Part shown: positions 5,899 through 62,546 of the stretch, piece after piece | Position numbering within the stretch: position 1 is the first letter of the stretch | Layout: every line of letters begins with the position of its first letter | Assembly: GCA_951799425.1 (NCBI GenBank) | Contig: OX637392.1 | Span: forward strand, 40,066,593 to 40,130,592 | Direction: 5' to 3' | Length of the DNA: 64,000 bases | Source of the DNA: Ilex aquifolium | Lineage: Eukaryota; Streptophyta; Magnoliopsida; Aquifoliales; Aquifoliaceae | Position numbers and translations under genes: made by a program | The notes under the pieces: model-generated | What the model was told of the DNA's origin: nothing | Databases searched by the model: none | What the model saw: the letters and a program-made list of their open reading frames with translations, nothing else

Positions 5899-5996
5899 GT
5901 ACCGGTACGCGTACCGGTACGCTGAACTCCAGAAGCTAGATCGTACCGGTACGCTGGACTCCAGAAGCTCAACCGTACCGGTACGCGTACCGGTAC
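5899..5996 (+). promoter_or_regulatory. CCGG-palindrome cluster, GTACCGGTAC x5
   Basis: Five perfect copies of the 10-bp palindrome GTACCGGTAC at 5899, 5911, 5943, 5975 and 5987, two of the gaps being GC only, which makes longer nested palindromes. Spacers share the word GACTCCAGAAGCT. The cluster lies 54-151 bp upstream of the TATA box. Regulatory function is inferred from this position. Confidence 0.75.
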
Positions 5997-6049
5997 GCCC
6001 GATAGAAACCAGCCCGATCCGACTTCGGGTCTTTCTCCATTTCTTCCAC

Positions 6050-6057
6050 TATAAATA
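6050..6057 (+). promoter_or_regulatory. LTR TATA box
   Basis: TATAAATA in the context CACTATAAATACTT. The same context occurs 55-60 bp downstream of the palindrome cluster in the sister LTRs. Confidence 0.75.
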
Positions 6058-7713
6058 CTTAAGGCCGACTATTTGAGCCTCATTTCACCCATCCAAACCC
6101 TAGGCACCCTTAGAGAGCTAAAGAGGGAGAGAAAAACACAAAAATTGGGAGAGATTTACAAGATCAAAGCCCTAGTTTTCAAGATTTCACTTCTCCATCC
6201 ATTCCCTCTTCTATAATTTCACTTCACCCTCACTCAAACCTCTTAGAACCAAAAGAGAAAGTAGCAAGGGAGCAAGAAAAAGGGGAAAAGGGAGTCTTTA
6301 AAGCTTGGGTTGCTAGAGATACTTGGTTGAGGTAGGGGATTTCTTCCTATGTTCTTACATTGAGGCTAGGGCTACATTATATGTATTCTTTTGGTTTAAA
6401 AATCATATGTACTTGCTATTAAATACATGATTCTTGTTCCTCTTGAAATAAATGCCATGTTTTGAACATTGTGATGGGTGGGTAACTATTAAATTTCTCC
6501 TTTTCATCTTCAAACCTTGGTTTTAAAGAGAAATTGACTTTTCCCTCTATTTTCCCTTGGTATTGCTTTCAAAACTTTAGTGTTTGATATTGTACACCAA
6601 AATGTTACTTATGATGATCTCTTGCTCATTTTCTTCCATCATATTATGAAACATTATATTAGAAATTGTGAAATTTGGTAATTTCTTGAAATGTTGATGA
6701 ATTGAGAATATGTTGGTTTCCTCAATTGTATGGTTGTTGTGAGGGACTTGGATTGCCTTCGAGAGATGCCGTAGAGTGTTAGAGGTTAGTCTACCCCAGT
6801 GGGGGTGAGATGGTTTCCTAGCACTTGTAGTGGGTTGTCATTTGGTAATGAAACCACTATTGTTCACTGGAGTTCGAACAAGGGATAGTATACTTTTCCT
6901 AGGGAGGGACTTGTCACTGCCATTGGGATGGTAGACGCCCTTTCCTATAGTGCTTGTGATTATGATGTAAATAGGTGGACTAGGTATAATCGTTCGGTAG
7001 ATTCATGAGAAGCAATCAACATACATGGTACGGGGATGAATCAATATACATAAGAACATGAGATTATTATTATTGTTACGGAATGGTTTCCAACATGTGT
7101 TTGTGGAGGTATGAGACTCCACAAGGACCTGTTGGAAATGGTTATGGTGATAATTGTGACTGAGCTTTACGGTTCATTTAAATTCTTGCGAACATTTAAA
7201 CTTGAGATCTATTTAAAATATCCTGCTTTTCCTTCAAAATGGTATATATGCTATTTGTGAAAATGAGACCAACCTTTTATATGTTTTTCTAAACCTTGTT
7301 TGAGTGTGGGAAGATTTTGCTACAGAGCTTCGTGCTCATCCCCTACAAATTACATTTTTCAGATTTGGTGCTAGAGGAGGATCTCGGCATCGACGAGTCA
7401 GGGCATTGGGAGGCTCCACTCGAGGGGAACCTAGATCCCGAGGTGGATATGTAGAGATGTAGCTTCTTTTGTACTAGACTAGGTTATTCTTTTGGACACT
7501 GTAAGGTCTAGTTTCTTTTGTTATTCCGCTGTGCTACTTTAATTAATTTTTGAGATGTAAATGCCATGGTTGGGAATATTCTTTTGGATAATGATGTAAA
7601 TATTTTATGGATGATGAATGAAGTTTAATTTATTTATGGATGATATTAGTGCTCTCATGATGTAAATGGTTTTAGTATGTAATGCCGTCCAGGGTGTGTT
7701 TTGGGGCGTTACA

Positions 7714-8130
7714 TAGACCCCCTTCCTCTTTTGGCTTAGATATCTTATCCCAAGAACACCAATGACGTTTCCTGACTCCTGACTTTGCCGACCAAAGAAA
7801 AGAAGCCATAATTGAGTTTAGCCTGGCTAAAATTCCTTTTGGCAGATTCAAAGAAGCTAACAAATGGACTGGTATCGAGGACAAAACAGATTGAATAAGT
7901 ACTATTCTACCCATATTTGACAGGAGTTTTGAATACCATCCTTCCAATCTCGCTTGAAACTTCCCCACCAACTCCTCAAAATACCTCAGTTTCACCCTCC
8001 CTTTAATGATAGGACACCCCAAATAGATAAGGGGACAAGCTTTTAAGGGAATATTCGCAACTCGAGATAACATATGCCTCCTAGAAGCAGTGATTTTAGA
8101 AGAGCAATAAAGGGAACTCTTGCCTTTGTT
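7714..8130 (-). pseudogene. LINE (non-LTR) reverse transcriptase fragment
   Basis: Minus-strand reading gives the conserved stretch downstream of the RT catalytic core of plant L1-type LINEs: IYLGCPI, LEGWYSKLLSNMGRIVLIQSVL, SIPVHLLASLNLPKGI, FLWSAKSG, WDKISKPKEEGGL. The frame is open from about 8130 (upstream KSSLYCSSKITASRRH context) to the edge of the gypsy 3' LTR at 7713, where the coding is cut. Only this piece of the LINE is present, so it is a dead fragment that served as target for the gypsy insertion. The open frame that runs on into the LTR to 7672 is a chimaera without meaning. Confidence 0.85.
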
Positions 8131-8159
8131 TACTTTTTACTCCCTTTTAATTTATCGTT

Positions 8160-9081: not shown

Positions 9082-9466
9082 TGTAAAACCCGGGTAAATT
9101 AGAACTTTTCTAAAAAAGTGTAAAATGGTAATTTGTCACTATAATGCGGATTTAAAATATGTATTTCTCTAGAGCTCGGATGATGAAACGGACCTCACCG
9201 TTGTATTCGTCTCGCGAAACCGAGTTGCCCATAAAATTTTCGTCCAATTCCGAGATAGTCGGATTTTGCGCGTTTTACAAAACGACGGTGTCGAATGACC
9301 TCACAAAGGTCCCCAAAAATGGAAATTATAAAATTTTCTTATAATTGAATTAAATTTCAAATAAAAATAATTTGAACTTAAACTGGGATGAAATTAATCG
9401 TTTCAGAGCGAAAACGGACCCGGACAAGGGGGGCGTGTGGTGCGACCTGCACCCAACATCAAGGGC

Positions 9467-9474
9467 TATAAATA
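9467..9474 (+). promoter_or_regulatory. TATA box of family-B LTR
   Basis: TATAAATA in GGGCTATAAATATCGG, 385 bp into the LTR. Equivalent position in copy 2 is near 27245. Confidence 0.6.
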
Positions 9475-11140: not shown

Positions 11141-11227
11141 GTACCGGTACAACGTGGTCCAGTAGGTACAGCGTACCGGTACGGCGTAGTCTAGTGGGCA
11201 CAGTGTACCGGTATGCCGTACCGGTAC
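11141..11227 (+). promoter_or_regulatory. CCGG-palindrome cluster in family-B LTR
   Basis: GTACCGGTAC at 11141-11150, 11173-11182 and 11218-11227, plus one decayed copy GTACCGGTAT at 11205-11214. It lies 283-369 bp before the LTR end, well downstream of the TATA box, so in this family the cluster is probably transcribed. Confidence 0.7.
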
Positions 11228-11515
11228 GCTTCCCAAAAATTAGAAATTTTTAAATTGTTTTGCCAAGCTTTTGGGCTATGTATTTTTTTCCTTTCAATGT
11301 TATAAATGGACAATAATAGAATACCAAAGATGGTATATTGGACCTCGGATGAGTCAATCAATCAAAGACATATAGACTTTATATTTTTTTAATCCCGGTA
11401 AAGGGGATGTGGTGTCGCAGTGTCGGGTTAACCGGCATCCACAGGTATTTCCGCGGGTTGATGGGTGATCAACGGACTTATAAATAACCCCCGGTTTTTG
11501 GGGCGTCACACATCT

Positions 11516-23446: not shown

Positions 23447-25568
23447 TTTAACGCCTCAAATTCTACCCTGGAAGACATTACTATCTACAAACCATCCAAC
23501 CATGAGAGCAACTAAAAATAACCATTAAATAATAAACCATTCATCCATCTGTTAAAGAATAAATACTAAAGCCAATAAAATATCATAATTTCTCCAACTT
23601 ACAATTCAAAACCAAATAGTATCTAGCAACGAAATAATTAAACTAACTAAACTATTGTTTCACAAAAATCTCTCCAAATACAATAATCAGAACTACATCT
23701 CTAAGCCTCCACTTCAGGATCCTCATACTTACCCTCTCAATTCTCGAGATCAACCTATTCATTCAATTCGAGCTCTTCCTCTAGACTATAATTTGAAAAA
23801 GATGTGGTTTGTAGGGGATGAGCACTAAGTTTTGTAAGAAAATCCTCTCAAACTCGAACAAGATTTTAAAATATATAAAACAGGTCGGTCTCATTTTTCA
23901 AAATATCATATATAACTTTTGAAATAAAACAGTGACAGTTTATCAGATCTCAAGTTTATGTAGTAGCAAGAAATTAAATGAAGAAGCAAAACCAACTTAA
24001 CTTGCAGATCACAAACTATTACCAACACTGTATCTCAAGTATGTAGTAAGACTGAGCATGAATACACACATTGAGAATATCCTGGCCCACACACACACCC
24101 AATCCTCGTCAAGATACGCAACTTTAGGAAGGGCGTATACCGACGCATCGGCAGTGATGAATTCAACTCAGGAATAGTATACTAACCCTCAGACTCGATA
24201 CCCGTGAGCGAATAATGGTTTGTTCCTCGCAAGACACCAACCCCACTACGAGTGGTAGGAAACTTTCAAACCCACTCGAAATAAGAAACGTATCTACCTA
24301 CTCTACGATATCCGGTCAACGGTCACCCATGTTCATCAAAACATCCACACAAGAGATACAATACCAAACCAATTCACCAAATCACAGGTAAATCAAGAAC
24401 CATAATTCCACAGGTATTTTTTCAACATAACAACCCAAGAAAATATGCAAGAGATCATCAAGAAATATAATTTTATTTTTGCAACAAAACACTAGAGTTT
24501 TTAAATCAAAAACAATGGAATATCAAGGTAAAATCTATATTTCTTGAAAACTAGGGTTTTGATAACAAGAACGAGAATTTTTATTTCTATCAAACGATAA
24601 CCTTATTCAAGACATGATACGATTTGCAAGAAAACCAAGAAACAATGATTTCATAACATATATATATGATTTAAAATCAAAACATACATATATATTAACT
24701 CTAACCTCAATGAACAAGTTTAGAAAGAAACCCCTACCACGATTCCGTAGTTTTGTGTATAAATCTAGCGTGTTTGATCCGTTCCAACGTGAGAATCCCT
24801 TTTGTGTCTTTTATTTTCTCCTTCTTTCTTGCTCTCTAGGGATGCCTAGGGTTGAAAACTGATGAAACATGACTAAAGAGACATCCTTATGATATTTATA
24901 CGGAGAAAAACCCTAAAACTGATCGGGGCTATTTTTAGGGTAGCGTCCAAACGGTCCTTGGGCGTCCGGAAGGTTCAAAGTCACTGTTTTTGATGAAAAA
25001 TAATATTTTAAGGTAGGGAGTACCGTTCGGACCGTGCTTGGGGCGTCCGGACGGTGCCAACTTTTTGTCTAAACTTTCGGAGAAGTTTTCACCTGTTTAG
25101 AAGTCGATTTAGGAAAGTTTAGTGAAATACACTTTTGTAGCCCTTGAATTCTAGTTTCTACTGTCCAACAATCAGATCAATCGGAGTTAGGAGTAAAATG
25201 TTATGGCTAAAATACTACAGTAGTGTTAAATTCCTTCCTATCCGAATTTTTTCTAAAATGTGTTTAAACTCCGGAATACTTCCTAACTTCTAATACACCC
25301 CATATTACCTCGCCCAAGGTTTCTCGACCTTCCAAAATCAATGGAAACCTTATTTTGACCTAAAAATATTTAGAAACCTATCTAATCACTATTATCAAGC
25401 TTAAATACCTTGAAAACTAAGTTTGACCTGAAAGTCAATTCGTCCGAAACTCAAACTTCATGATCAATCTTTCAACAATGATTCTAAGTTTCTTCCATCA
25501 TTTTATTCATCTTAGGAGAACTCTTAAGGTAATAACATCCTTATTTAATTTTAATACGGGGTCGTACA
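23447..25568 (-). repeat. Old 3' LTR of a Tekay-type element
   Basis: Minus-strand LTR: ends in TACGACCCCGTATT next to a reversed polypurine tract and the AAGTTTCGAGGACGAAACTT block (25575-25610). The distal end (TTTAACGCC in place of TGTAACGCC) is decayed. Clearly related to the solo LTR at 50029-52167. TATA box at 24893-24900 (minus), palindrome cluster upstream. Confidence 0.8.
24949..25055 (-). promoter_or_regulatory. CCGG-palindrome cluster, decayed
   Basis: One perfect CGTCCGGACG (25044-25053) and decayed relatives such as GTCCAAACGG, GCGTCCGGAAGG and CCGTTCGGACCG, lying 49-155 bp upstream of the minus-strand TATA box. Confidence 0.6.
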
Positions 25569-29117: not shown

Positions 29118-30846
29118 TGTTGACCCTATTCTTCGAACATGAACCCTCAATGTGTATATGACTTATGTGTGTGGGTGAGTGTCACTCTCACTCGGGTTCG
29201 ATGCAAGAAATGGGGTAAACGTGTGTGAATGAACAAAATGTGTGTGTATGTGAACAAAAGTGCACCTCAAGCGCATAGAGACTTTCGAGTGTCATGTTTT
29301 ACTTGGAATTCGTATTCCAATGTCGTCTCCCCAGGGAAGGAAGGTGAATTGTTTTGAAGGTGAATTGTTTGGTGAAAAAGGAAAAGTGCAAAAATCTTTG
29401 ATATTTGAGATTTGGTGAATTGTATTCTTGATGAAAATGAAATTGAAAGAAGTGTTGGCTAATCCAAAGAGGTCATTCCAATGGGAATGTCAAATCAACT
29501 CAAGACGTTCTTCCAATGGTGCCAAGACGTTCGATTGATTCGTAGGAAGAGCGGGACTAAAATGGAGGTGAGGATTTAAGCATACCTCGTGACAAGTCTA
29601 CGGTGTATCAAGAACTCTCAACCACGTCCACACTCAACCTAGTCAAACCAAACCGTCGTACAGTACGAGGAGGAATGAAAAAGAGTTGATTTAGCATACC
29701 CAAGAGGAATTCTCCATTGGATTAGCCAACTTAAAGCTTAGCTACTCATATTTAATGCAAGAATATAAATGAAGTGAAGAGACATTGTGAAGAAATGAAG
29801 ACTAGAACTTAAATTAATGCAAGAAAAGTTAAACTATGAAGTAGTGCATTGAATACCCATTTTAACAGCTTGAAATGAAGAAAACTCAGTACAACAATGG
29901 TAGAATCTAAATGATGTATCTAAACTTGTAATGCACTTGAAATAAATGACATTTAAGGTAATAAATGAAGCTTACAAGATTCTTATAGAAGATTACAAGT
30001 GAAATGGATAGAAGAGATGCAAAAATCTATGCTTTCTCTCTCTAAAACTATATTTTCTTCCTAGAGCTTATATCTCTATATCTCTACATTGCTCAATAAT
30101 ATGAAGTAATGCCTGCATTTTCGTCCATGGAGGTCCTCTCTGGTGTGTGACAGGCTTCCCATCAAGGGGGGGGGGGGGGAGGGGGGCTGAGTTGATGGCT
30201 TGGGCAAGCTAGGACAAGCCTAGCCTGCAATTTCCCTGGTTTGGCTCTTCTCTCTCTTCCTCATTAATGCTTGAGCCTCCAAAATCCAACTTGAAGTGAA
30301 GGGAGGCTTGTTTGTGTGTAAGAGATGTCAGGGGACAAGTGGGAGAAGCATAGGTGGGACCCCCAAATGGCAGAGCTTGAGTTGCAGGCTGTCTGGGATT
30401 TCTGGGCAAAACCTTCCGAAAGGTCGATATAAACCTTCTGGAAGGTTTGTGCAGGAACTGTTAAAACAGCAGTTCAGACAGCAAAACCTTCCGGAAGGTT
30501 CATTCCAGCGGACAAAACCTTCTAGAAGGTTTTGGCAGTGAATAGGCAGACCAAGTGCAAACCTTCTGGAAGGTTTATGGCCAAACCTTCCGGAAGGTTT
30601 TCATCCAATTTGTCTTTTTCTTGGTTTCTTCACCTTCCAATCCTTCCTTTAAGCTATCCCCTCATCTTCATTGACTTCAAACACTTCAATGGGGGCTAAA
30701 CTCAAACCATTTGCTTTCTTCACCTACATTCACACAAGATTTCATTAAAACGTAGATTAACCGCATTTATCCCCAATTTCACAACTAAAGCAAGTATAAA
30801 AGGGCATAACCACATACAATATATGCAATATTTTGTACTAATCACA
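29118..30846 (-). repeat. 5' LTR of the Athila-like element
   Basis: Minus-strand LTR between the primer-binding site and 30846, where it starts TGTGATTAGTAC. Left boundary at 29118 is the first TG after the primer site and is approximate. Contains the CAAGCGCA ... TCGTCTCCCC block common to this LTR class, a G run at 30167-30185 and the palindrome cluster 30409-30600. No 3' LTR or target duplication found. Confidence 0.65.
30409..30600 (-). promoter_or_regulatory. CCGG-palindrome cluster, AACCTTCCGGAAGGTT type
   Basis: Six units: 30409-30424 (imperfect), 30431-30448 (CTGG centre), 30485-30500 (CCGG), 30514-30533 (CTAG centre), 30559-30574 (CTGG centre), 30583-30600 (CCGG). Arms AAACCTT/AAGGTTT are kept while the central CpG has changed to TG or TA, as expected from deamination of methylated C. 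No canonical TATA box close by. Confidence 0.7.
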
Positions 30847-33404: not shown

Positions 33405-35815
33405 TGTAACGCCCCCAAAACCACCCTGGACGGCATTACATACTAGAACCATTTACATCATGAGAGCACTAAGATAAATCATCCATAAATAAGACTTCAT
33501 ATCAATCATTCCTTAATTTAACAAAATTCGGGCAGAGTCTCCTTTGTTCGGGGAGCTCTACCCAAAACACAACTTGTGCAATTCTACTGTAATGACCACA
33601 CCGGGTCCATTTAACTACCATAAAATTAATATATCAAATTTACATGTTATCCCAAAAGAATAGGCCAAGCTAGGGCCTTTACATCTCCACAAAAGTACTA
33701 TAATACACAGCGGAATTTACAAAATAAAACTAGGCTATACAATTCTCCCAAAAGATTATCCAAGTCTATAACAAAAGAAAGGGGGGGTCGCTCTACGCGT
33801 CCACCTCGGGATCCACGCTCTCTTCTGTCGGAGTCTCCCAATGTGTCGGCCCCTCGACTCCCAGCTCCTCGTCAAAGGCAAAATCTGAAAGGTGGGGAAG
33901 TAAGGGGGGGTGAGCACAAGGCTCTGTAGGAGGATTCTTCCAAACTCATTCAAGGTTTTGAAATCAAGTAAAACAGGTAGGTCACATTTCGCACATACAT
34001 ATAAATAAATTTCTAAAATAAAATAAGGACATTTTAAAGGAGATCTCAAGTTTGTACAATAATAAGGAATTGAAAGAGAATAAAACCACGTTTAATTGAC
34101 AAACAATTTCCAACATAATCCACTCCACCATACACCATTTCCACAAGTTATCGCGGCATCTCATACTACCCGAAACTCTTGGAGAAATAATATTTGGTAC
34201 AATGAACAATAATTTCTATTTGGTACCACTCAAGTAGGTTGTCGCTTCTCATGAATCTACCCGACGATTCTACCTCGTTCACCCATTTCCACTAACAATC
34301 ACAGACCAATTTAGGAAGGGCGTGTACCGTCTCATACGGCATTGACGAGATCCTCACAAGGTGTCTAGTATACTAACCCTTTTCCCCGGTATCCGTGAAC
34401 AATAGTGGTCACTGTCACCACAATGATCCACTACGAGCATTAGGCAACCATCTCACCCCCCATTGGGATAGACTAACCTCTAACGCTCTGCGGCAGTTTT
34501 CGAAGGTAATCCAAGTCCCTCACAACACCATACACAAGAGTGACATACCAACAATATACTCAACCTCATATACAAGCAAATTCCATGATTTTCCTCAATT
34601 TTCACAAGCAAGATACATAATAGAACAATTTAAGAAAACATACCCATTTCGCAAATCATGTTACAAGAGACAAGGTTAAAGGAAATAAGCATGAGATCAT
34701 CAATACAATCATTTTACTACCCAACACAAAGTTCTAGAATTTTCGAAATCAAGATGATGTGAAGATATAGAGAAAAATCCATATTTCCCCAAAAAACTAG
34801 AGTTTGATGGATTTTCAACCATCATTTTGTTCAAATCATGTAAATGTTTGTAAACATACCAAGGAACAAGGAACCCATAAAAAATACATACTATTAAGAG
34901 CCAAATTCTACATGTATAATAACCCTAACATCAATGGACAAGAATGGAAGAAAACCCTACCTTAATGTTCTTGGAAAAATTAGGGCTTTGATCTTGAATC
35001 AACCATTCAATCCCTTGTTTTCTCTTGATCTTGTGTTTCTCTCTTTCTCTCTTCCTCTCTTATGTTTTCTAGGGTTTGGAGTGGTGTAAGGAAGGCTAAG
35101 AAGGTGACAAAATGTATTTATAGTGGAGGAAAAATCGAGGGTTCGCGAACAGAAAAATTCGGGTTTTTACAGTGGCTACCGGTAGCTGATTTTGGCTACC
35201 GGTAGCTCGGACACACGGGACCCTCGACTACCGGTTGGCTACCGGTAGCTGATCTTTACTGGACCATTGGCTACCGGTAGCTGATTTTGGCTACCGGAAG
35301 CTGATTTTTGGCTACCGGTAGTCACTACCCAGATTTTCTACTTCCACTTCCAATGCATTTTTTACCCATGTAGAGGTCGAATTGGAAAATTTTCATGAGA
35401 TACACTTTTGTAGCCCTAGATGTCTAATATCTACTGTAAAAATTTCAGGTAATTTGGAATTAAGAATAAAAAGTTATGATCGAAATAGTAGACAGTGTCC
35501 AAAATCCTTTATACCCAAATTTTCTCTAAAATGTGTTTTAACTCCAAAATACTTCCTAACTTCTAATACACCCCATATCACCTCTCCCGAGGTTTTTTGA
35601 CCTTCCGGACTCAATGGAAACCTTATTTTGACCTAAATCCATTTAGAAACTTACTTAATCCCTCTTCTCAAGCTTACACACCTTCAAAACTTCAACTTCC
35701 AAATTAATTTGCATCTCTAGTTTATTCCTACCATCACTACACATATCCACATTTTTACCACTATTATTTAATATATATCTATATACATATATAAATGAAA
35801 ATGCGGGGTGTTACA
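33405..35815 (-). repeat. 3' LTR (left copy), 2411 bp
   Basis: On the minus strand starts TGTAACACCCCGC and ends GGGGGCGTTACA. Against 38977-41387 I count five substitutions and two 1-base indels. TATA box 35115-35122 (minus) and palindrome cluster 35175-35322. Open frames shared with the other LTR (for example 34395-34679) are LTR sequence, not genes. Confidence 0.95.
35175..35322 (-). promoter_or_regulatory. CCGG-palindrome cluster, GCTACCGGTAGC type
   Basis: Perfect 12-bp palindromes at 35175, 35195, 35238 and 35270, with imperfect units near 35227, 35290 and 35311. Spacers repeat TGATTTTG. Distance to the minus-strand TATA box is 53-200 bp. The flank toward the LTR start is homologous to that of the 5386-7713 LTR, although the palindrome differs. 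Confidence 0.78.
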
Positions 35816-36398: not shown

Positions 36399-36589
36399 TC
36401 CGTTAGTTCGCTGCGCACTCTGATATAAATTACAATCCACCAAAGGTTACAGTTGAAACCTAACCAGACCTGTCCTCCCATCTTAGCTTCCAAATCCATA
36501 TACAAATTACGAAATAATTTAAGAAAAATTAACATAATATCATCGAAAATACCATTTTAGTGGTCACTACCAATCACTAGAGTTTTGAA

Positions 36590-37620: not shown

Positions 37621-37999
37621 CACTTTTCCTTGAAAATCAAGGTTTCGAAGGCATACAACGAGAATTAGTGGTTACCCAAGCATAATATAGTTAAAACAAG
37701 GTAAGATTTAAGGTTTGGAATCAAGAACAAATGAGAAATCAAGAGAAAAAAACACATCTCCTGTGTAAACTAGGGTTGTGAAGGCATAAGATAATATTTA
37801 GAGTTTACCCAATCATAATATATTTTAGAACAAGGTAATATTAGCAAGAATGACAAGACATGATGATTTCCTTGCAAGTAGATATAATTTAGAGTCAAAG
37901 ATTACATATATATAATAACCCTACTGGTATCCCCTTGTTCTTCCGTAGGCAAATTAACATATACCGTAAGTTCTATTTCCTCGAAACCCAATCCAAATT

Positions 38000-38976: not shown

Positions 38977-41387
38977 TGTAACGCCCCCAAAACCACCCTG
39001 GACGGCATTACATACTAGAACCATTTACATCATGAGAGCACTAAGATAAATCATCCATAAATAAGACTTCATATCAATCATTCCTTAATTTAACAAAATT
39101 CGGGCAGAGTCTCCTTTGTTCGGGGAGCTCTACCCAAAACACAACTTATGCAATTCTACTGTAATGACCACACCGGGTCCATTTAACTACCATAAAATTA
39201 ATATATCAAATTTACATGTTATCCCAAAAGAATAGGCCAAGCTAGGGCCTTTACATCTCCACAAAAGTACTATAATACACAGCGGAATTTACAAAATAAA
39301 ACTAGGCTATACAATTCTCCCAAAAGATTATCCAAGTCTATAACAAAAGAAAGGGGGGGTCGCTCTACGCGTCCACCTCGGGATCCACGCTCTCTTCTGT
39401 CGGAGTCTCCCAATGTGTCGGCCCCTCGACTCCCAGCTCCTCGTCAAAGGCAAAATCTGAAAGGTGGGGAAGTAAGGGGGGGGTGAGCACAAGGCTCTGT
39501 AGGAGGATTCTTCCAAACCCATTCAAGGTTTTGAAATCAAGTAAAACAGGTAGGTCACATTTCGCACATACATATAAATAAATTTCTAAAATAAAATAAG
39601 GACATTTTAAAGGAGATCTCAAGTTTGTACAATAATAAGGAATTGAAAGAGAATAAAACCACGTTTAATTGACAAACAATTTCCAACATAATCCACTCCA
39701 CCATACACCATTTCCACAAGTTATCGCGGCATCTCATACTACCCGAAACTCTTGGAGAAATAATATTTGGTACAATGAACAATAATTTCTATTTGGTACC
39801 ACTCAAGTAGGTTGTCGCTTCTCATGAATCTACCCGACGATTCTACCTCGTTCACCCATTTCCACTAACAATCACAGACCAATTTAGGAAGGGCGTGTAC
39901 CGTCTCATACGGCATTGACGAGATCCTCACAAGGTGTCTAGTATACTAACCCTTTTCCCCGGTATCCGTGAACAATAGTGGTCACTGTCACCACAATGAT
40001 CCACTACGAGCATTAGGCAACCATCTCACCCCCCATTGGGATAGACTAACCTCTAACGCTCTGCGGCAGTTTTCGAAGGTAATCCAAGTCCCTCACAACA
40101 CCATACACAAGAGTGACATACCAACAATATACTCAACCTCATATACAAGCAAATTCCATGATTTTCCTCAATTTTCACAAGCAAGATACATAATAGAACA
40201 ATTTAAGAAAACATACCCATTTCGCAAATCATGTTACAAGAGACAAGGTTAAAGGAAATAAGCATGAGATCATCAATACAATCATTTTACTACCCAACAC
40301 AAAGTTCTAGAATTTTCGAAATCAAGATGATGTGAAGATATAGAGAAAAATCCATATTTCCCCAAAAAACTAGAGTTTGATGGATTTTCAACCATCATTT
40401 TGTTCAAATCATGTAAATGTTTGTAAACATACCAAGGAACAAGGAACCCATAAAAAATACATACTATTAAGAGCCAAATTCTACATGTATAATAACCCTA
40501 ACATCAATGGACAAGAATGGAAGAAAACCCTACCTTAATGTTCTTGGAAAAATTAGGGCTTTGATCTTGAATCAACCATTCAATCCCTTGTTTTCTCTTG
40601 ATCTTGTGTTTCTCTCTTTCTCTCTTCCTCTCTTATGTTTTCTAGGGTTTGGAGTGGTGTAAGGAAGGCTAAGAAGGTGACAAAATGTATTTATAGTGGA
40701 GGAAAAATCGAGGGTTCGCGAACAGAAAAATTCGGGTTTTTACAGTGGCTACCGGTAGCTGATTTTGGCTACCGGTAGCTCGGACACACGGGACCCTCGA
40801 CTACCGGTTGGCTACCGGTAGCTGATCTTTACTGGACCATTGGCTACCGGTAGCTGATTTTGGCTACCGGAAGCTGATTTTTGGCTACCGGTAGTCACTA
40901 CCCAGATTTTCTACTTCCACTTCCAATGCATTTTTTACCCATGTAGAGGTCGAATTGGAAAATTTTCATGAGATACACTTTTGTAGCCCTAGATGTCTAA
41001 TATCTACTGTAAAAATTCAGGTAATTTGGAATTAAGAATAAAAAGTTATGATCGAAATAGTAGACAGTGTCCAAAATCCTTTATACCCAAATTTTCTCTA
41101 AAATGTGTTTTAACTCCAAAATACTTCCTAACTTCTAATACACCCCATATCACCTCTCCTGAGGTTTTTCGACCTTCCGGACTCAATGGAAACCTTATTT
41201 TGACCTAAATCCATTTAGAAACTTACTTAATCCCTCTTCTCAAGCTTACACACCTTCAAAACTTCAACTTCCAAATTAATTTGCATCTCTAGTTTATTCC
41301 TACCATCACTACACATATCCACATTTTTACCACTATTATTTAATATATATCTATATACATATATAAACGAAAATGCGGGGTGTTACA
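38977..41387 (-). repeat. 5' LTR (right copy), 2411 bp
   Basis: Twin of 33405-35815. Its palindrome cluster is at 40748-40895 and TATA box near 40688-40695. Confidence 0.95.
40748..40895 (-). promoter_or_regulatory. CCGG-palindrome cluster, twin LTR
   Basis: Same units and spacing as 35175-35322, first unit at 40748-40759. Confidence 0.78.
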
Positions 41388-42115: not shown

Positions 42116-44387
42116 TGTAAACCCCCACATGTTTATATTAATACAGTAATGTAATTGTTTATTAATTCTAATATATGTAATGATGTAAGAGTGAACCATA
42201 TATATTATAACAGTAGGAATAAATACTTGGGAGACAAATTGATTGCGAAGTTTAAGTTTCGAAGGCGTTTAAGCTTGGGAAGAGTGGTTAGGTAAGTTTC
42301 TAAATATTTTTAGGTCAAAATAAGATTTTTATTGAATCTGAAAGGTCTTGCAACCTTGGGAGAGGTAATATGAGGTGTATTAGAAGTTAAGAAGTATTAT
42401 GGAGTTAGACCGCATGTTAGAAAGAATTTGGATATGAAGGAATTTGACACTACCTTAGTATTTTAGCCACAACTTTTTATACTTAACTTTGATTGATCTG
42501 ATTTTTGGACAGTAGAAACTAGACTTCAAGGACTACAAAATTTTATTTCATTAAAATTTTATGAATCAACTTCTAAATAGGTCAAATAGACCTGGAAGTT
42601 GAGGGTATGCAGTCACCCGCGTCCGGACGGGAATAGACACGCGTCCGGACGCGATTGGCAGAAAGTTGGGTGAAGAAACACGCGTCCGGACAGTAAAAAG
42701 CACGCGTTCGGATGCACCAAACCGAGGGCTTCACGTCCCAGACCTGCTTTGGGTGTTATCTCCAATTTTTCCGCTATAAATACCTATGGAACACCCCTTA
42801 GGCTTACTTTCATCAATATTTCGTCAATTCTAACCACTAGAGAGCCTTTGGAGAGTAAGAAAAAAGGGGAGAAATACAAGATTGAAGGGAATTTTCACAT
42901 TGGATCGGATCAAAACCTCAAAATTTTCACACAACACTAAGGAAACAAGGTAGGGGATTCTTCTCAAGTTCTTTCATTGAGGCTTAGGGTATTGCATATG
43001 TATGTTTTCAATATTCTTGATAGTTATATAATAAATACTTATGAGTTCTTTGTTTCTTTGTTATTGAAACATAGTTTTGAACAAAATACATGTTTGGGAT
43101 CAAGAAACATTGTTCTTGAATTTCCAAAATCTTAGTTTTGCTAAATACATGTTTGGTTATGAAAAATACATGGATTCTTGATTTCTAAATTCCTATTCTT
43201 GATTAAAACATGTTTTCATCTAATAATTGTTCTTATTCCAAGAAATTATGATTTTTGGCAAAACCCTAGAATTCTGAATATCGAAATTGTGAAGGTTTTC
43301 TTGATATGATCTCTTGCATATTTTAATTCATTTATTATTGTAGAATATTGAGAATTATGCAATTGTGATACTTGAATAGTTAATAAAAATTTTGATTGGT
43401 TAAGATTGTGGTTGTTGAGAAAGTTGTTGTTTCATCTCTCGTATGGTTTGTTGTGACGGACTTGAATTGCCTTCGAGAGCTGCCGTAGAGTGTTAGATGT
43501 TAGTCTATCCCAGTGGGGGTGAGATGGTTGCCTAAAACTTGTAGTGGATTATTGTTTGTGAGAGCAACTACTATTGTTCACATAAGTTCGAGGCTGAGGG
43601 ATGGTATACCTTTCCTGGGAAGGATTTATCAATGTTGTGGGAGACGGTATACGCCCTTCCTAAAGTGTCTGTGATGTGCCCTGCGGGGAATGATTAAGAT
43701 TGTGTGGTTGTGATGGGTGAACGAGGTAGAATTTTTGTGTAGATTCCTGAGAAGCAACCAACCTACATGACAATGAGGATGAACCAACATACATGAGAAT
43801 ATGGAATGATGTTACTGAGTTATTTATTGATTGCTTTAATTTCTTGTAAGTTTATTCATGTCATTGATTTACTGTATTTCGTACACTTTTGATCATTACA
43901 ACTATCATGGTTTATTCTCAAAATCTATAGATGCTGTTTTCCAAAAGAGACTTGCCATCTTTTATTTGTTTTAAAACTTTGTTAGGATTTGAGAGAGATT
44001 TCCTACGGACTTTTGCTCACCCCCTACAATACCACTTATAGATTTTGGCATAGATGAGAATGTCAATGTGGATGAGCAGACTGATTTCGAGCCATTGGAG
44101 GATCAAGATGTGGATCCTACCTTAGAGGAATAGAGTTGATCTATTTTTGGTTTAGAGTTTGAGAGATTTTTATGAAACAATGTTTTAGCTAGATTTATTA
44201 TTCCGCTACTAGATATTTTTGGTTTTGAATTGTAAGCTGGAGAAGTTTCAATGTTTTAATGGCTTTAGAATTTATTCTTTGTCAAATGGATGAATGATTT
44301 ATTACTTAAGGGTTATTTTTAGTTGCTCTCATGGTTGGATGGTTTGTAGATAGTAATGCCTTCCAGGGTGGATTTTGGGTCGTTACA
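42116..44387 (+). mobile_element. Solo LTR, Tekay-type, TSD TTACT
   Basis: 2272 bp, starts TGTAAACCCCCAC, ends TTGGGTCGTTACA, exact duplication TTACT at 42111-42115 and 44388-44392. TATA box 42775-42782; palindrome cluster 42620-42715. Homologous to the solo LTR at 50029-52167 and more distantly to 5386-7713. No interior. Confidence 0.95.
42620..42715 (+). promoter_or_regulatory. CCGG-palindrome cluster, CGCGTCCGGACGCG type
   Basis: CGTCCGGACG at 42620-42629, CGCGTCCGGACGCG at 42640-42653, and two decayed units (42681-42693, 42703-42715). It ends 60 bp before the TATA box. Bases 42639-42668 are identical, as reverse complement, to 62290-62319. Confidence 0.78.
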
Positions 44388-50028: not shown

Positions 50029-52167
50029 TGTAACGCCCCAAAATCCACCTTGGGAGACATTACTGTCTATAACCATTCATATAATAAGAGCAACTAACAA
50101 AATTCATAAATAAACGAATTTCCATTCATCATCCATAATAATTAAAACATCATCTAAAATAATTACACCAAACTATGGCGATTACATCCCAAATATTAAC
50201 TATTATCTTGCAGTGGAATAAAGAAAATATTAACCTTAACATTAACTCAAAATGTGCCCCCCAATCTAGAACATAAATAGCTCTAAATGTCCACCTCAGG
50301 ATCCCTATTCCCATCAATTTGGGCTTCCCAATCCATTTGCTCCTCAACTCCGAGCTCTTCCTCTAAACCATAATCTGAAAAAGATATTGTTTGTAGGGGG
50401 TGAGCACTAAGCTCTGTAGAAAAATCCTTCCAAGCTCGAATAAGATTTTGAAAACATATAAAACAAGTCGGTCTCATTTCACAAATATCATATATAACTT
50501 TTGAAAGAAAACAGTGACAGTTCATCCGATCTCAAGTTTACGCGGTGGCAATAAATTAAATGAAGAAGTAAAACCAACTTTCAAACAATGAACCATTTCC
50601 AACATTTTATATCATTTCCAACAATTTTGTATCATTATCCCCAATTGTATCTCAGGTAGAAAGTAAGACTACACATGAATACACACATTGAGAATATTCT
50701 GGCCCACACGCACACACCCAATCCTTGCAAGGATACCCTAATTTAGGAAGAGAAAATACCGACGCATCAGCAGTGACGATCCAACCTAGGAATAATATAC
50801 TAACCCTAAGCCTCGATACCACATGAGCGAATAGTGGTTTGGTCCTCGCAAGGCACCAAACCCACTACGAGTGGTAGAGAACCTTCAAATTCACTCGGAG
50901 TAAGAAATGCATCTACCCACTCTACGATACCCAGTTAACGGTCACCTATGTTCATCTAAACATCCACACAAGAGATACAATACTCAACCAATTTCTCAAA
51001 TCACAAGTAAATCAAGAACCCCAAATTCCACATGTATTTTTCCAACATAACAACTCAATAAAATAAGTAAGAGATCATCAAAATATATAATTTTATTGTT
51101 CCAAATAAAGCACTAGAGTTTTTGAATCAAGAACAATGGAATATCAAGAGAAAAATCTCTATTTCTTGAAAAACAAGAGTTTTGAGATAAAAAAACAAGG
51201 ATTTTATGACTATCAAACCATAATTTCATTCAAAACATGATATGATTTGCAAGAACATCAAGAAAAAAAGATTCCATAACAAATATCTATGATTGAGAGT
51301 CAAAATATACATATATATAAACCCTAACCTCGATGGACAAGATTAGGAAGAAACTCATACCTTACTTCCTTAGTGTTGCGTGAAAAACTAGAGATTTTGA
51401 TCCGATCCAATGCGAAAATCCCCTTCAATCTTGTGTTTCTCCCCTTCTTTCTTACTCTCCAAGGCTCTCTCTAGGGTTAGAATTGATGAAATGGGGCTAA
51501 GGGAGGTGTCCTTAGGTATTTATAGTGTAAAAATTGGAGAGAACACCCAAAACAGGTCCGGGACGTGAAACCCCCGGTTCGGTGCGTCCAGAAGCGTGTT
51601 TTTTACTGTTTGGACGCATGTTTCTTCGTCCAACTTTCTGCCAAATGCGTCTGGACGCGTGTCTATTTTCGTCCGGACTCGGGTGACAATATACCCTCAA
51701 CTTCCAGATCTATTTTGACCTATTTAGAAGCCGATACAGAAAAGTTTCGTGAAATACACTTTTGTAGTCCTTGAAGTCTAGTTTCTACTGTCCAAAAATA
51801 AGATTAATCTGATTTAGGAGTAAAAAGTTATGGCTACAATACTAAGATAGTATCAAATTAGGTTTTAACTTCGGAATACTTCCTAACTCCTAATACACCC
51901 CATATTACCTCTCCCAATATTTTTTGACCTTTCGGATTCAATGAAGGCATTATTTTGACCTAAAAACATTTAGAAACTTACCTAATCACCCTTCTTAAGC
52001 TTACACACCTTCAAAACTAAGTTTGACCCGAAAGTCAATTCGTTCGAAACTCAACTTCATGATCAATCTTTCAACAATGATTCTAAGTTTCTACCATCAT
52101 TTTATTCATATTAGGAGAACTCTAAAGATAATAGTATTCTAATTTAATTTTAATACGGGGTCTTACA
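50029..52167 (-). mobile_element. Solo LTR, Tekay-type, inside the Mutator-like element
   Basis: 2139 bp; plus strand starts TGTAACGCCCC and ends GGGGTCTTACA. Flanks AGAGT (50024-50028) and AGAGC (52168-52172) form a duplication with one change. Minus-strand TATA box at 51517-51524; decayed palindrome cluster upstream. Same subfamily as 42116-44387. Confidence 0.9.
51576..51675 (-). promoter_or_regulatory. CCGG-palindrome cluster, decayed
   Basis: Units such as GCGTCTGGACGC and CGTCCGGACTCG, with spacer CAACTTTCTGCCAAATGCG close to that at 42650-42668. Lies about 52-150 bp upstream of the TATA box. Most changes are C to T or G to A at CpG. Confidence 0.6.
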
Positions 52168-53702: not shown

Positions 53703-56167
53703 TGTGACACCCCAAAATCCGGGGGTCCTTTATACACCGTTGACCATCCGTCAACCCGCGGAAATACTTGTGAATGTCGCTTAACCTGACACCCCGTCAC
53801 CACATTCCCTTTACCGGGATTTATAATGATATATAAAAGAATTACTAGCCCAACTTCTTCTTGGTTGGTTAACCCATCCGAGATCCAATATACCACCATT
53901 GGCATCTTATTATTGTCCATTTATAACCTTTAAAGGAAGGAAACAATATCCCCAGAGTTTGGCAAACAAAACAAGAAAAATAAAATTTTGGAAAAATTTG
54001 GCGGGCGTACCGGTACGCGTACCGGTACGGTGTACCCACTGGACCTCGACGTACCGGTACGCGTACCGGTACGCTCTGCCTTCTGCCTGTCTCCGTACCG
54101 GTACGCGTACCGGTACGGTTTTGCCAGTTTTGCCTTTTTCCTTTGTTTTTCACTTCCAATCCATTCTAATGCATTCCAAACTCACCCTACACATGCATAA
54201 TGAGGATTTCCATATAAAACATGTTTTATACAAGTTCCATTACAATTAATTCCATGTATTTACATATCAAAATGGAATTTTAACAAAAGCTTTACAAAAT
54301 AACCATAAAAAGCCACAAGTCGGCTTTCTTCAACTTTGGGGCTCGTAATGGGAGCCGTCCGCCGGTGTGTACCCCGCACCTGAAATGTTTTTCCCACAAA
54401 GGGTGAGCCACGCTCAATAGGGTATCTCCTAATGAGGCTACTCCCCAACCTATATGCATATGAAATGTTCACATGCCACAAAACAACAATTCATAACATT
54501 CCAAGCAATAAACGTATTCAATGTTGGAATTTCACAATGTCATGCCATGTAATGAGGTGAGACTCACACATGCATATCACCCGAGCCCTCCCCGGCTCCT
54601 CTACACATGCAAACGCCAATGTGTACCAATCCGTCATTTATGTTGCACATCAAATGACATTTTCATTCTAGGGTCTTTCTTGGGGTGGATATTTATGGAC
54701 TTACACCAACGGCACCCAACCGACACGGAATTTATGGACTTCCACCAACGGTTCCGCGTACACCGACACACTTTATGGGCTCTATACCAACGGAGTGCGT
54801 CTCCGATCACCGGGTCTCTCACCCGAGGGATAGTCTAGCCCTTCTTACTACCCCAACCCTAACAACCATGCAAACCGTGAGACTCGACTAGGTCATCGAC
54901 CCATATTACCCGAGCCCACTTGTCATCCACCAAGCGTGGTGAAGACAACCACCATGCACACACACCCACCAAATGCGATGTTCCCGTGCATATGCAATGT
55001 GATGCTCCATTGCGACAATATGATCATGTTCAATATGCTATGAGTAACACATGAACATTCTAATCACATTTCACATATTTCATGGCAAAATTATATCATA
55101 CGCATATAATTTCCATAATTCTCTACAATGTCAATATATTACAAACATGAAAATATATCAACATTTAATCTTAATCAACACCCAAGCATGTCATCACATT
55201 ATCAAGAAATAACATACTTCAATTTCAAGGCATAAGATAAACACATAGCATGCCCACACTTCACATAGCCCAAGTGTCACATTGGGTTAATTTCATATAC
55301 TCAATCCTAGAAATTTCATTTAGAAACTTCTAATTACCAATCCAATTAGAATTTATTTCAACCCATTTCACCCAATTTCACAACCATAGGCAAATGACAT
55401 ATACATATACATATCTATTCATTTACCCATTTCACCTAAGCATTCTAGGTGTGGAATAAACCTTGGTAGGAGGGAACCCTACCTCTTGAAGCGTAAGGAA
55501 CGACGTTGAGAAGCCTCCTAGACCCGATTCGAGCTCAAAGCCCTAGCCTCCAAAAATCCCGTCCTTGAATTCTCTCCAAAACCCGACCTCCTTGGTATGG
55601 TTTTGTAGCTCTTGGCGAGGGGAACAACTTTCTCTCTTGGCCCGAGTGGATTTGAGCTCCGTGGAGACGAGGATCTTAGAGAGAAGGTGGAGAAAACCTA
55701 GCTTTTCCCTCTCCTCTTTCTCACGCTAAAACCGGCTGAACAAATGGGGAGAAAATCTGGTTTTCTCCCCTTTAAATACTCTTGGAACACTTGGCCCACA
55801 ACGCGCCACACGGCCTCTCTTTTCCGGGTCCGTTTTAACCCCGAAACGATTAAATTTCGTCCCAGTTTAAGTTCAAAATATTTTTATTTTAACTTGTCTC
55901 TAATATTTCCCCAAACTTGGAAATTTTATAAAAATTTCGTGTACGGGGTCACCCGAGGTCCGTTCGTCTCGTAAGACGCGAAAAATCCGACTATCTCGGA
56001 ATTCAATGAAAATTGACAGGATAACTAGTTTTCGCGAGACGAATCCAACGGTGAGGTCCGTTTCGTCATCCGAGCTCTAGAAAAATTCAGGTTTACAACC
56101 TGTACCATAGTGGCAAATTACCTTTTTGCCCTTTTTCTCAAAAGTTCAAATTTTCTCGGGTTTTACA
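53703..56167 (-). mobile_element. Solo LTR, family B copy 3, TSD GTTAT
   Basis: 2465 bp; plus strand starts TGTGACACCCCAAAA and ends CGGGTTTTACA. Exact duplication GTTAT at 53698-53702 and 56168-56172. Same family and architecture as 9082-11510: conserved block near its start (55970-56085) and a palindrome cluster near its end (54007-54116). Confidence 0.94.
54007..54116 (-). promoter_or_regulatory. CCGG-palindrome cluster, GTACCGGTAC x6
   Basis: Perfect GTACCGGTAC at 54007, 54019, 54051, 54063, 54095 and 54107, as three pairs each with a GC spacer, the pairs 44 bp apart. Positions 304-413 from the LTR end. Bases 54002-54031 equal, as reverse complement, 5972-6001 of the Tekay-type LTR. Confidence 0.78.
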
Positions 56168-57250: not shown

Positions 57251-57261
57251 CAACACTGTGG

Positions 57262-59569: not shown

Positions 59570-60180
59570 CATTGGCAAGAAGCAATGAAACAAGAATATT
59601 AGGCACTTATTACTAATGGAACGTGGACTCTTTGTTCCCGTCCTTTCCATCGGAATATCATTCGCACGAAATGGGTATGCAAAATCAAATAAAAGCCCGA
59701 TGGTTCTATTGATCACTGCAAAGTGCGGTTAGTTGCGAAGGGATTTCAAACAGTAAAATGGTGTAGACTATACTAAGACTTTTAGTCTAGTCATTAAACC
59801 CACCACTATTCCTACAATGCTAGCCATTGCAACTCAATTTAAATGGGTCATCTGAAAATTGGATGTCTCTAATGTGTTTCTACATGGAACCCTTGATGAA
59901 GCAATATTCATGGAACAACCACCAGGCCTTATAAGCCTCACTCATCCAGATTATGTTTGCAAGTTACATAAGGCAATTTATGGACTCAAACCAGCACCAC
60001 GGGCATGGTTTCACAGGCTATCTAATGTCTTGATGGATCTTGGTTTTACGGCTTCCTTGGCTGACTCTTCCTTATTTTCTTTCCATGCAACTCATGTGCA
60101 CATCTTTATACTTATGTATGTTGATGACATCCTTGTAATTGTTAACAATGCTATTGTTATTTCGTCTCTCATTCTCTAAT
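59570..60180 (+). pseudogene. Copia reverse transcriptase
   Basis: First part (59570-59850) has stops and a frameshift; from 59859 the frame is open: DVSNVFLHGTLDEAIFMEQP, GLKPAPRAWFHRLSNVL and the active site YVDDILV near 60117-60137. Non-functional as a whole. Confidence 0.85.
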
Positions 60181-60922
60181 TGCAGCAAATTTTTCCACTT
60201 AAGGACTTGGGTCCACTATGCTATTTTCTCGGCATACAGGCTACCAGAAATCCACGAGGTCTCCATATTTGTCAATCTAAATATATTTTGGATCTTTTAC
60301 ATAGGACGAAAATGGTTGGTGCAAAGCCTTATGTTGCTCCATGTGTCTCAGGCATGAAACATTCTAAGTTTGATGGTGTATTACTTCTTGATCCTACTGA
60401 ATATTGGCATGTCATGGGTGCCCTTCAATATTGCACTATAACTCGACCAGACATTGCCTCTTATGTTAACCAACTCTGCCAACACATGTAGTCACCTACA
60501 ACTGGTCATTGGATTATTACTAAGTGAGTGTTGTGGTATCTCAAAGGGACAATTGATCATGGACTCTTCTACACACCTGGTGCTCTTACTCTAACCGCCT
60601 ATTGTGATGCAGACTGGGTAGGAAACCAGATGATCGCAACTCCACGACTTGCTTCAATATTTGACTTGGTTCTTGTCTTATGTCTTGGGGTGCTAAGAAA
60701 CAAGCTGTTGTCTCTCAGTCTAGCACAGAGGCCAAATATTGTGCAATGGCCATAAGCACAACCGAACTCTATTGCCTTCGCATGCTTTTGAAGGAGTTAA
60801 GGGTTAGCCTCAATTCCCCTCCTATTCTTTGGTGTGACAATGTCATTGCCTTAGCCTTGGCTTCGAATCCCGTTTTTCATAGTCGCACAAAACACATCGA
60901 GGTGGAATATCATTTTGTTTGA
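60180..60922 (+). pseudogene. Copia RT end and RNase H
   Basis: FPLKDLGPLCYFLGIQATRN, then LKGTIDHGLFYTPG, AYCDADWVGN, VVSQSSTEAKYCAMA, ILWCDNVIALALASNPVFHSRTKHIEVEYHF. Interrupted by stops at 60489 and near 60530 and by a shift near 60660. The C-terminal tail continues in the next frame to about 61030. Confidence 0.85.
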
Positions 60923-61061
60923 GAAAATGTGGTTAATCGGGGCATTTTGGTTAAATTCATTTCCTCCCTTGATCAGATTGCTAACGTTTTTACCAAGGGT
61001 CATACTACCACTTGTTTTGCTCAACTCAAAACCAAGATTCTGGGGTGTCCACCCCCATACG

Positions 61062-61326
61062 CTTGCGAGGGGATGTTAGAGCCTCAGATCATCAAGCAAC
61101 AAATCTAGAAGATCATCATGATCTTGATCCATGTGATCCAGTGTTTCAATCCTATGTTACTTGATTATGCATGTCATTTGTAAATTTTATCCTTATCACA
61201 ACCATTGTAATCCCTTGAATCTTGGGAACGTTGCTTAATATTTGTGTATATAACTCAGCCTAGCTGAGCATACATTGTAATCAAAAAATTTATTTTAATA
61301 AATATCAATTTCTTCTTTCCTCTTTC
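61062..61326 (+). repeat. Polypurine tract and 3' LTR of Copia element 2
   Basis: GCGAGGGGA at 61065-61073, then an LTR of about 253 bp beginning TGTTAGAGCCTC at 61074 and ending near TTTCA at 61326 (right end approximate). Confidence 0.7.
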
Positions 61327-61487
61327 ATGAAGTAAAGCTTAAACCTGTTGTTTATTGATCAACACATGACTAGTAGCATCTAGATCGAATACCATAGATG
61401 TCATAGCCCTCAAGTATTATTTTATTGTAAGCTCTGACTTCTTTTGATACGAGTCAAACATCATGGTCAATGCTTCAACTTTAAAAG
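61327..61487. other. Short intergenic stretch
   Basis: Between Copia element 2 and the next LTR; contains decayed Copia-like wording but nothing I can name. Confidence 0.4.
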
Positions 61488-62546
61488 TGTAAACCCAAGC
61501 GCAGGTTGAGCAAAGTAATATAATCTCGGAAGTCCGAGGTCGATCCCACGAGGAATTGTAACAAGGAACAATCACACAAACAACAAAAGTAATTTGAACG
61601 GAAAAGGATTTGTTTGGAAAGTTGTTGATTGGAGAAAAGTGATTTTTGGTAATTAAAACAGTAATAAATAAAATACTAGAGCATCAGGTACTCCCTCTCA
61701 ACTTCATACAATAATAGTTAAAGAATCAAAGCTTGACTTGAAAGAGGAATTAAATGTCAGTTAATCCGATTAACAAAGCAAGTGATAAATCCAAAGGTTA
61801 TAATCAAAAGACTACCAGAAACCTGAATAATCATTCAATCATATTATTTTATGAAATAATGTTAATCCTTCCAGCATGGAATAACCAGTGATTTATACGC
61901 AGGGAAAATCAAGCAATCGATGTACGTGGCACAACAACTCAAGAGTTTATACAGCATAAACACTTTGCTAAAAGATTAGGGATTAAATTAACATAATAAC
62001 ATAAATCTTTAAGTACAAGAGTCAATAACAATACCGTATTCCGTTGAGAGGTTTTCCCCTAGCCCTAGCTTAGCGTTTTAGCCAGACATGGTAAAGGATG
62101 CAGAAAATAGACTAAAAACCAAGAGGATCCCCCTTTTCAAAGTCCTAGGTTCGTATTTATAAATTACATTCCCAAGAGATTGCATCCCACTAGGATTCTA
62201 AATTCGGTAGCAGAAGCTTGACACGCGTCCGGATGCGCCTTTCTCAACCGTCCGGACGCAACTTCCAGAATGGTCCTTCCTCCGTTTATCAACTTTCTGC
62301 CAATCGCGTCCGGACGCGTATACTTCCTCCGTCCGGACGCATACTCCAGTGTGATCTGTCCCGAGCTATGCTTCCTTTCTTCTCATAACTTCACTCCAAT
62401 TTTGCACTATTAACCTGCAAAACAACACAACTCATCTTTTATTCACATAGCCTTAATCCTCAATTAAATCAACATAAACATCACACTTTCACAATAAAAT
62501 GATCAATATTACCTCTGACAAATGTAAATATTAGACCTGAATCACA
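61488..62546 (-). repeat. 3' LTR of a minus-strand LTR element
   Basis: 1059 bp; plus strand starts TGTAAACCCAAGCGCAGG and ends CTGAATCACA, followed by a C-rich run that on the minus strand is a polypurine tract (AAGTGGGGGGG). The AAGCGCA ... GGTCGATCCC block resembles the LTR at 29118-30846, so the element is probably of the same broad class. TATA box 62154-62161 (minus); palindrome cluster 62223-62339. Confidence 0.75.
62223..62339 (-). promoter_or_regulatory. CCGG-palindrome cluster, CGCGTCCGGACGCG type
   Basis: CGTCCGGACG at 62249-62258, CGCGTCCGGACGCG at 62305-62318, CGTCCGGACG at 62330-62339 and a decayed unit at 62224-62236. It lies 62-178 bp upstream of the minus-strand TATA box. Bases 62290-62319 match 42639-42668 of a Tekay-type LTR exactly as reverse complement, in the same orientation relative to each element. 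Confidence 0.78.

Follow-up and report, generated by a model that had tools for sequence, protein, structure and literature searches.

In work by Bousios et al. in 2016, the palindromes of maize Sireviruses are said to be small-RNA hotspots within a fast-evolving, palindrome-rich cis-region of the long terminal repeat (LTR). Sirevirus LTRs carry family-specific short palindromes in multiple copies, which are CpG-rich and clustered upstream of the TATA box; some Sireviruses have internal copies, which precede the env-like gene, Tnd-1 has the motif ACAATCGATTGT, a perfect 12-mer centred on CG, and the palindromic motif in general has been called Sirevirus-specific against the other copia elements compared (available part of PMC2829016). 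In the Del (Tekay) elements of grasses the 5' part of the LTR holds "plastic" CpG islands, length-variable and poorly conserved, which are absent from the eudicots sampled by Cruz et al. 2014 (available part of PMC4029996). Here we describe arrays of short CG-centred palindromes in LTRs of Ty3 elements and of an unclassified family (family B) of Ilex aquifolium, studied in a stretch of 64,000 nucleotides (G000:C2:40066593-40130592, the window) and in 800 Mb of the genome in 103 contigs. They look like the Ty3 counterpart, in a eudicot, of the palindromic repeats of Sireviruses and of the plastic CpG islands of Del. An earlier prediction for this window had stated that no described system fits; as far as the two sources are available, both systems come close.

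The likeness to Sireviruses comprises LTR palindrome clusters upstream of TATA (found in Tekay-type LTRs, with a mixed picture in other families), a CpG-island-like composition (observed/expected ratio 1.63 in the arrays), and the resemblance of Tnd-1 to the palindromes described here. Two of the arrays read appear to be internal. Sireviruses are Ty1/copia elements, whereas the array-bearing elements for which we read pol belong to Ty3 (RVT_1 in the Tekay copy and in L138, a piece of a GTCC-type element). Furthermore, the Sirevirus core, which apart from Tnd-1 is CGG...CCG and often has bases in between, does not recur here: the exact centre is CCGG or TTCGAA, CCGG overlapping CCG/CGG in four types and the CGTTCGAACG type having neither. 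Type exchange, a fixed TATA distance of a single copy and a TCCAGT spacer motif are not described in the available part of PMC2829016. With Del the arrays share the lineage and a CpG-rich, length-variable 5' LTR segment (57-225 bp from first palindrome centre to TATA); they differ in their occurrence in a eudicot and in being composed of palindromes, the string "palindrom" being absent from the main text of PMC4029996. The maize small-RNA hotspots are alike in their palindrome-rich, fast-evolving cis-region and different in that the elements are copia and silencing is the effect studied. Short repeated motifs in non-coding transposable-element DNA also differ between families in the VANDAL/VANC system (available part of PMC12844716); VANDAL is, however, a DNA transposon with its own factor, whereas the Tekay copy here has no such open reading frame (ORF).

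Results

Enrichment and clustering of the palindromes

The window contains 32 exact CCGG-centred palindromes of at least 10 nt, against 1.3 expected from a first-order Markov model, and twelve other 10-kb stretches contain 53 against 2.3 expected. In the latter, TCGA-centred palindromes were also in excess (20 vs. 5.8 expected) and GTAC- and ACGT-centred ones were about twofold enriched; AT repeats were over-represented, too. A local scan of the window and 120 kb of other loci (184 kb in total), in which an array was defined as at least three identical 8-nt palindrome cores with one- or two-letter words excluded, gave 18 arrays compared to none in 20 Markov shuffles. All 18 have a CG centre; one is the other register of the array in the LTR at 53703, and two are the LTR pair of one element (33405/38977).

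Genome-wide, GTACCGGTAC was found at 51,910 sites, its reversed control at 907. Adjacent pairs, counted where the same palindrome occurs again 2-60 bp on, amounted to 36,608 for the GTAC type (control 1), 12,455 for CTAC (0), 16,901 for TTCG (0), 16,152 for TTCC (1) and 4,492 for GTCC (1), which sums to 86,608 matches. Since the reversed controls are themselves palindromes (GGCC- or AGCT-centred) and yet not enriched, the enrichment is not due to symmetry alone. Evidently, the palindrome clusters are real and genome-wide, and the clustering in LTRs that the original prediction had put forward goes well beyond chance. Its figure of three to seven palindromes per LTR holds in part: seven of ten LTRs carry at least three exact copies (at least 8 nt), but the LTR at 29118 has two CCGG-centred copies plus CTGG/CTAG relatives, and those at 23447 and 50029 retain one exact palindrome each amid decayed ones. 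In the LTR at 9082 the array is located at 11141-11228, and ACCCGGGT at 9088-9095 is no part of it.

Five array types in one slot

A 27-base anchor in the unique 3' region (U3) of Tekay-type LTRs matched the genome 1,942 times and the control never. Sixty anchored copies, all from one contig, were sampled, and rows from the window were added for some counts. Five cores were found, namely GTACCGGTAC, CTACCGGTAG, CTTCCGGAAG, GTCCGGAC and GTTCGAAC, and 52 of the 60 U3s hold an intact one (GTAC 20, TTCG 15, CTAC 8, GTCC 6, TTCC 3), leaving eight with no intact palindrome of these types. None of these 52 U3s mixes the five types; 36 have at least three exact copies, 12 have two and four have one. 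The centre-to-centre spacings are mainly 12-13, 31-32 and 44 bp for GTAC, 20-21, 32 and 43 bp for CTAC, 21-22 and 42 bp for TTCC, and 17-18 and 67-68 bp for TTCG. The universal CCGG centre proposed for the window does not extend to the genome, because the fifth type, CGTTCGAACG, found beyond the window, is TTCGAA-centred.

Strict exclusivity of all palindromes was considered and rejected: GTTCGCGAAC, a further CG-centred palindrome between array and TATA, also occurs in eight CTAC-type U3s (L027, L039, L046, L056, L057, L068 and the window CTAC LTRs), so that exclusivity is limited to the five array types. A Tekay-type subfamily that has this anchor and lacks an array (L018, L020, L023, L026, L073, L075) provides a natural control.

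Position relative to the TATA box

Among 42 palindrome-bearing U3s with TATAAATA, the last palindrome centre lies 57-59 bp upstream of this box in 35 (32/36 sampled, 3/6 from the window), corresponding to 8/8 for GTAC, 9/10 for CTAC, 3/3 for TTCC, 14/15 for TTCG and 1/6 for GTCC. The first centre varies between 57 and 225 bp, and none of the 163 palindromes is downstream of TATA. Genome-wide counts at 38-68 bp from TATAAATA gave 2,054 GTAC sites upstream vs. 11 downstream, and 1,106 vs. 48 for TTCG. Among 100 listed matches each, 98 (TTCG) and 60 (GTAC) were at 57-59 bp; the listed GTAC matches include 17 copies from one tandem array, and merging rows that share a TATA box (one strand only) left 60 of 79. 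The predicted location of the cluster upstream of TATA is thereby borne out for Tekay-type LTRs, and together with the genome-wide pair enrichment it supports a modular promoter-proximal element.

The remaining 16 of the 58 palindrome-bearing U3s lack TATAAATA; seven of them have TTTTAAAACACC (inside GGTGTTTTAAAACACC) 3' of the array (L030, L036, L043, L044, L062, L072, L076) and nine have neither. Two arrays (L139 and L141; G000:C1:9555900-9556300 and 12991000-12991400) are apparently inside elements, and in both of these two internal arrays read the last centre is 18 bp before a TATA-like word, which hints at a second, internal promoter.

Exchange between LTR backgrounds

On a tree of the upstream U3 (66 rows) the palindrome type requires ten changes, with a minimum of five and a shuffled mean of 39.1. 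For the 58 rows bearing palindromes, the downstream tree needs four type changes, equal to the minimum, and the upstream tree seven. The type thus tracks the downstream core promoter better than the upstream U3, indicating that array and promoter are swapped as a block. L019, a CTAC-type LTR, is a clear recombinant: upstream of the array it is 95.2% identical to the GTAC element 5385 and 85.4% to the CTAC element 33405, downstream 75.6% and 94.1%, respectively (gap columns excluded). Homology on both sides of differing palindromes, as first reported, must be revised in view of the downstream tree, in that the upstream side is kept across types and the downstream side sorts with type.

Exchange apparently also reached more distant LTRs. 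The LTR at 61488 aligns with L140 in minus-strand orientation, at 78% over 814 columns, and L138, which is situated between L137 and L140 and was taken as the interior of that element, contains RVT_1, RNase H and integrase pieces, which assigns the 61488/L140 family to Ty3. A copia origin of the 61488 LTR had been considered because copia gag and RVT_2 pieces adjoin it, and was rejected as the LTR matches the one beside Ty3 pol pieces. In BLAST (E up to 1e-3) against Tekay 42116, Tekay 5385 and family B, its sole match was a stretch of array, 51 bp at 88% identity, in 42116. Likewise, homology of family B to Tekay 5385 is confined to the array, and family B gave no BLAST match to 33405 at the same threshold. 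These comparisons suggest that array segments were exchanged across Ty3 and family B LTRs; with the recombinant L019, they uphold the predicted module exchanged between LTR backgrounds.

Fine structure, composition and folding

Next to GTACCGGTAC the first flanking position is symmetric more often than expected (48 of 95 distinct flank pairs vs. 36.1), whereas the positions further out are not (21/48 vs. 22.4 and 6/21 vs. 5.6 expected). The other cores have little or no excess of symmetry beyond the core, in small numbers, and in the arrays there is no clear symmetry excess beyond 10-12 nt, on which ground selection for long hairpins or cruciforms was rejected. A 26-nt palindrome in L019/L069 was dismissed as a counter-example because it belongs to one subfamily only. 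The spacers have a motif of their own: of 94 distinct spacers, 42 contain TCCAGT (either strand), compared with a mean of 1.3 and a maximum of 5 after shuffling, and TCCAG accompanies all four core groups.

The CpG observed/expected ratio is 1.63 in the arrays (52 sampled and window rows with at least two palindromes), 0.59 upstream and 0.47 downstream. Copies of the palindromes with one mismatch carry C to T or G to A in 51 of 73 cases (CTAC type only 2/11). The CpG centre probably makes the sites methylation-sensitive, and older copies may have been methylated; a methylation-sensed switch, as originally suggested, is possible on this sequence evidence. Furthermore, 39 of 58 arrays were folded (at least three exact 10-mers, no GTCC type) and proved far more stable than mononucleotide shuffles, with mean z of -6.5 to -9.2 by type. 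Some stability is still lost when only the spacers are shuffled, with mean z between -0.3 and -2.0 and individual arrays reaching -5.2.

Elements and arrays in the window

The features are compiled in Table 1. The LTR at 5386 is long and starts with TGTAACACCC, in keeping with the Del/Tekay label. Its segment 7065-7713 repeats positions 1-649 of the window at 99.2%, and the LTR ends are TGTAACACCC...GTTACA. The Tekay copy, with gag and pol upstream of this LTR, shows Retrotrans_gag, RVT_1 and the Ty3 domain order; pol has a weak chromodomain match (PF00385) at its C-terminus, whose 21.5 bits (E 2.3e-4) fall short of the 25.1 cut-off. Between the LTRs, gag and pol are the only ORFs of at least 110 aa, barring a 130-aa antisense frame almost wholly in the LTR, which makes a factor encoded by this copy unlikely. 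The family B LTR is probably on the minus strand, judging from the spacer orientation and a TATA box at 86 bp. On the plus side, too, there is a TATA-like word, 101 bp away.

Table 1. Retrotransposon LTRs and palindrome arrays in the window (TSD, target-site duplication).
Feature	Position	Strand	Remark
Tekay/Del-like Ty3 LTR	5386..7713	+	gag 806-1789 and pol 1838-5344 upstream
GTACCGGTAC-type array, 5 copies	5898..5998	+	centre spacings 12/32/32/12
TATAAATA	6050..6057	+	58 bp from last palindrome centre
GTACCGGTAC-type array, 4 cores	11141..11228	+	solo LTR 9082-11510, TSD AGATG; TATA-like box 78 bp downstream
One intact CGTCCGGACG in decayed array	25044..25053	-	23447 LTR
AACCTTCCGGAAGGTT array, 2 exact, with CTGG-/CTAG-centred relatives	30430..30610	.	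29118 LTR
GCTACCGGTAGC-type array, 5 exact copies	35175..35321	-	TATA box 58 bp downstream, minus strand
GCTACCGGTAGC-type array	40748..40894	-	partner LTR 38977, same element as 35175..35321
CGTCCGGACG-type array, 3 exact and decayed copies	42620..42720	+	Tekay-type LTR 42116; TATA box 87 bp downstream
Decayed CGTCCGGACG-type array, one exact 8-nt core	51585..51678	-	LTR 50029
Family B solo LTR	53703..56167	- (probable)	TSD GTTAT
GTACCGGTAC-type array, 6 copies	54005..54117	- (probable)	within family B LTR; spacings 12/32/12/32/12
CGTCCGGACG-type array, 3 exact and 1 decayed	62224..62339	-	non-Tekay Ty3 LTR (61488 family); TATA-like box 92 bp downstream, minus strand

Between the retrotransposons lies an intact berberine-bridge-enzyme-like ORF (17260-18861), 92% identical to an Ilex paraguariensis protein, with the next best at 79% among 120 listed. 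A minisatellite with a 30-bp period (36581-37842) separates the LTRs at 33405 and 38977. Outside the window, G000:C1:28180288-28262147 holds 17 copies of the Tekay anchor on one strand at intervals of about 5,094-5,124 bp; the units of this long tandem array contain LTRs.

Discussion

We lean, with a modest preference, towards the view that the arrays are upstream sites for dimeric DNA-binding proteins whose specificity is exchanged by recombination; on the sequence data, a dimeric factor, as already suspected for the window, is the best reading. The array would serve the LTR promoter as a cluster of upstream activating sites, in which each perfect palindrome of 10-12 bp is a putative target of a sequence-specific homodimer, most probably a host protein, and TCCAGT between many palindromes may be a second, shared site for a partner. 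In Tekay-type LTRs the promoter-nearest copy is held 58 bp from TATA while outer copies are gained and lost. The palindrome sequence would set the factor and hence the expression condition that drives the element. Subfamilies switch type by recombination, probably through template switching in reverse transcription, with array and core promoter swapped as a block, and array segments have apparently also crossed between distinct families.

Several observations weigh against this view. The array seems dispensable, as an intact palindrome of the five types is missing from eight of the 60 anchored U3s (six of them being one subfamily), and among the remaining 52 there are four with a single copy and 12 with two. 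GTCC-type Tekay LTRs keep the TATA spacing in one of six cases, perhaps through decay, and TCCAGT was not found in these six U3s on the one strand examined. As the 58-bp spacing is common to related sequences, it could be partly inherited. Of 26 non-anchored arrays (at least two cores), ten are without a TATA-like word up to 220 bp to either side, and in the other 16 such a word is 18-203 bp off, in some on both sides. Spacings of 21, 32 and 42 bp fit whole helical turns and those of 12-13 and 17-18 bp do not, so that uniform helical phasing was rejected. The symmetry test is low-powered where one base dominates, and no known plant factor was matched to the palindromes. Finally, the binding of a protein, the host origin of that factor, a benefit to the element and the direction of transfer are inferred from the sequence.

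Four other explanations rank below the dimeric-factor reading. The arrays might work through secondary structure of RNA or DNA: if the self-complementary units paired in U3 transcripts, the resulting hairpins would become small-RNA and silencing hotspots, along the lines suggested for maize Sireviruses, and any repeated palindrome would serve. The high stability of the folded arrays, the partial loss upon spacer shuffling and the small-RNA hotspots over Sirevirus palindromes (available parts of PMC5311732 and PMC10760457) speak for this improbable account; however, the folding stems mostly from the palindromes themselves, symmetry does not clearly pass 10-12 nt, and neither the fixed TATA distance nor the upstream bias nor the shared TCCAGT is predicted. 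A factor encoded by a transposable element, comparable to VANC proteins, which bind the repeated VANDAL motifs, and possibly supplied by the additional ORF of Retand-like elements acting in trans on other families, appears a little less probable still. Non-coding motif arrays do differ between families, the L139 and L141 arrays are flanked by LTR-like arrays and seem internal to elements, the putative DNA-binding protein TRP28 is common in Retand (available part of PMC11963269), and VANC is mentioned, as is an additional ORF for active sunflower Tekay elements (available part of PMC12844716), yet the interior of the Tekay copy lacks a third ORF of at least 110 aa.

The two historical explanations fare worse. 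Common descent, in which all these LTRs would have inherited one ancestral array whose arms then diverged in the ordinary way without being exchanged, would explain why the Tekay types share the conserved upstream flank and TATA, but it conflicts with recombinant LTRs such as L019 and L069, with 51 bp at 88% between LTRs that have no other BLAST match, and with type changes on the upstream tree above the minimum (10 vs. 5); we regard it as unlikely. Least credible of all is neutral tandem-repeat turnover, in which slippage amplifies any short U3 unit and the palindromes hitchhike with successful subfamilies. Variable copy number, homogeneous units within arrays and the clustering of types on the trees are in line with it; the presence in one slot of five different units, each a perfect palindrome with a CG centre, palindromic controls that yield only 0 or 1 pairs, a fixed TATA distance with a shared co-motif, and homology between families that is restricted to the array in the tested pairs are not.

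With regard to novelty, neither palindrome arrays in Tekay nor an exchange of types is described among the matches listed in the open-access literature, subscription papers lying outside the search; a literal search for the palindrome motifs returned no plant-retrotransposon title among the matches listed, and nothing usable on LOB-domain sites or modular LTR palindromes was among those listed either.

A tentative extension of the dimeric-factor reading, which we rather doubt than believe, is that the five palindromes form an address code, each being the operator of a different, fast-diverging dimeric factor. By swapping array-promoter blocks, even from one Ty3 family to another, retrotransposon families would take on a new address and thereby keep an activator or escape a silencer. 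If true, this would be a plant cis/trans arms race with one code read by several families at once. With five exclusive and apparently mobile versions in Ty3 elements, tied to TATA in Tekay-type LTRs, the odd motif becomes a regulatory code that can be tested. In one genome, the 86,608 pair matches would also offer a large stock of regulatory sites ready for use and a natural experiment on the change of promoter specificity in selfish elements.

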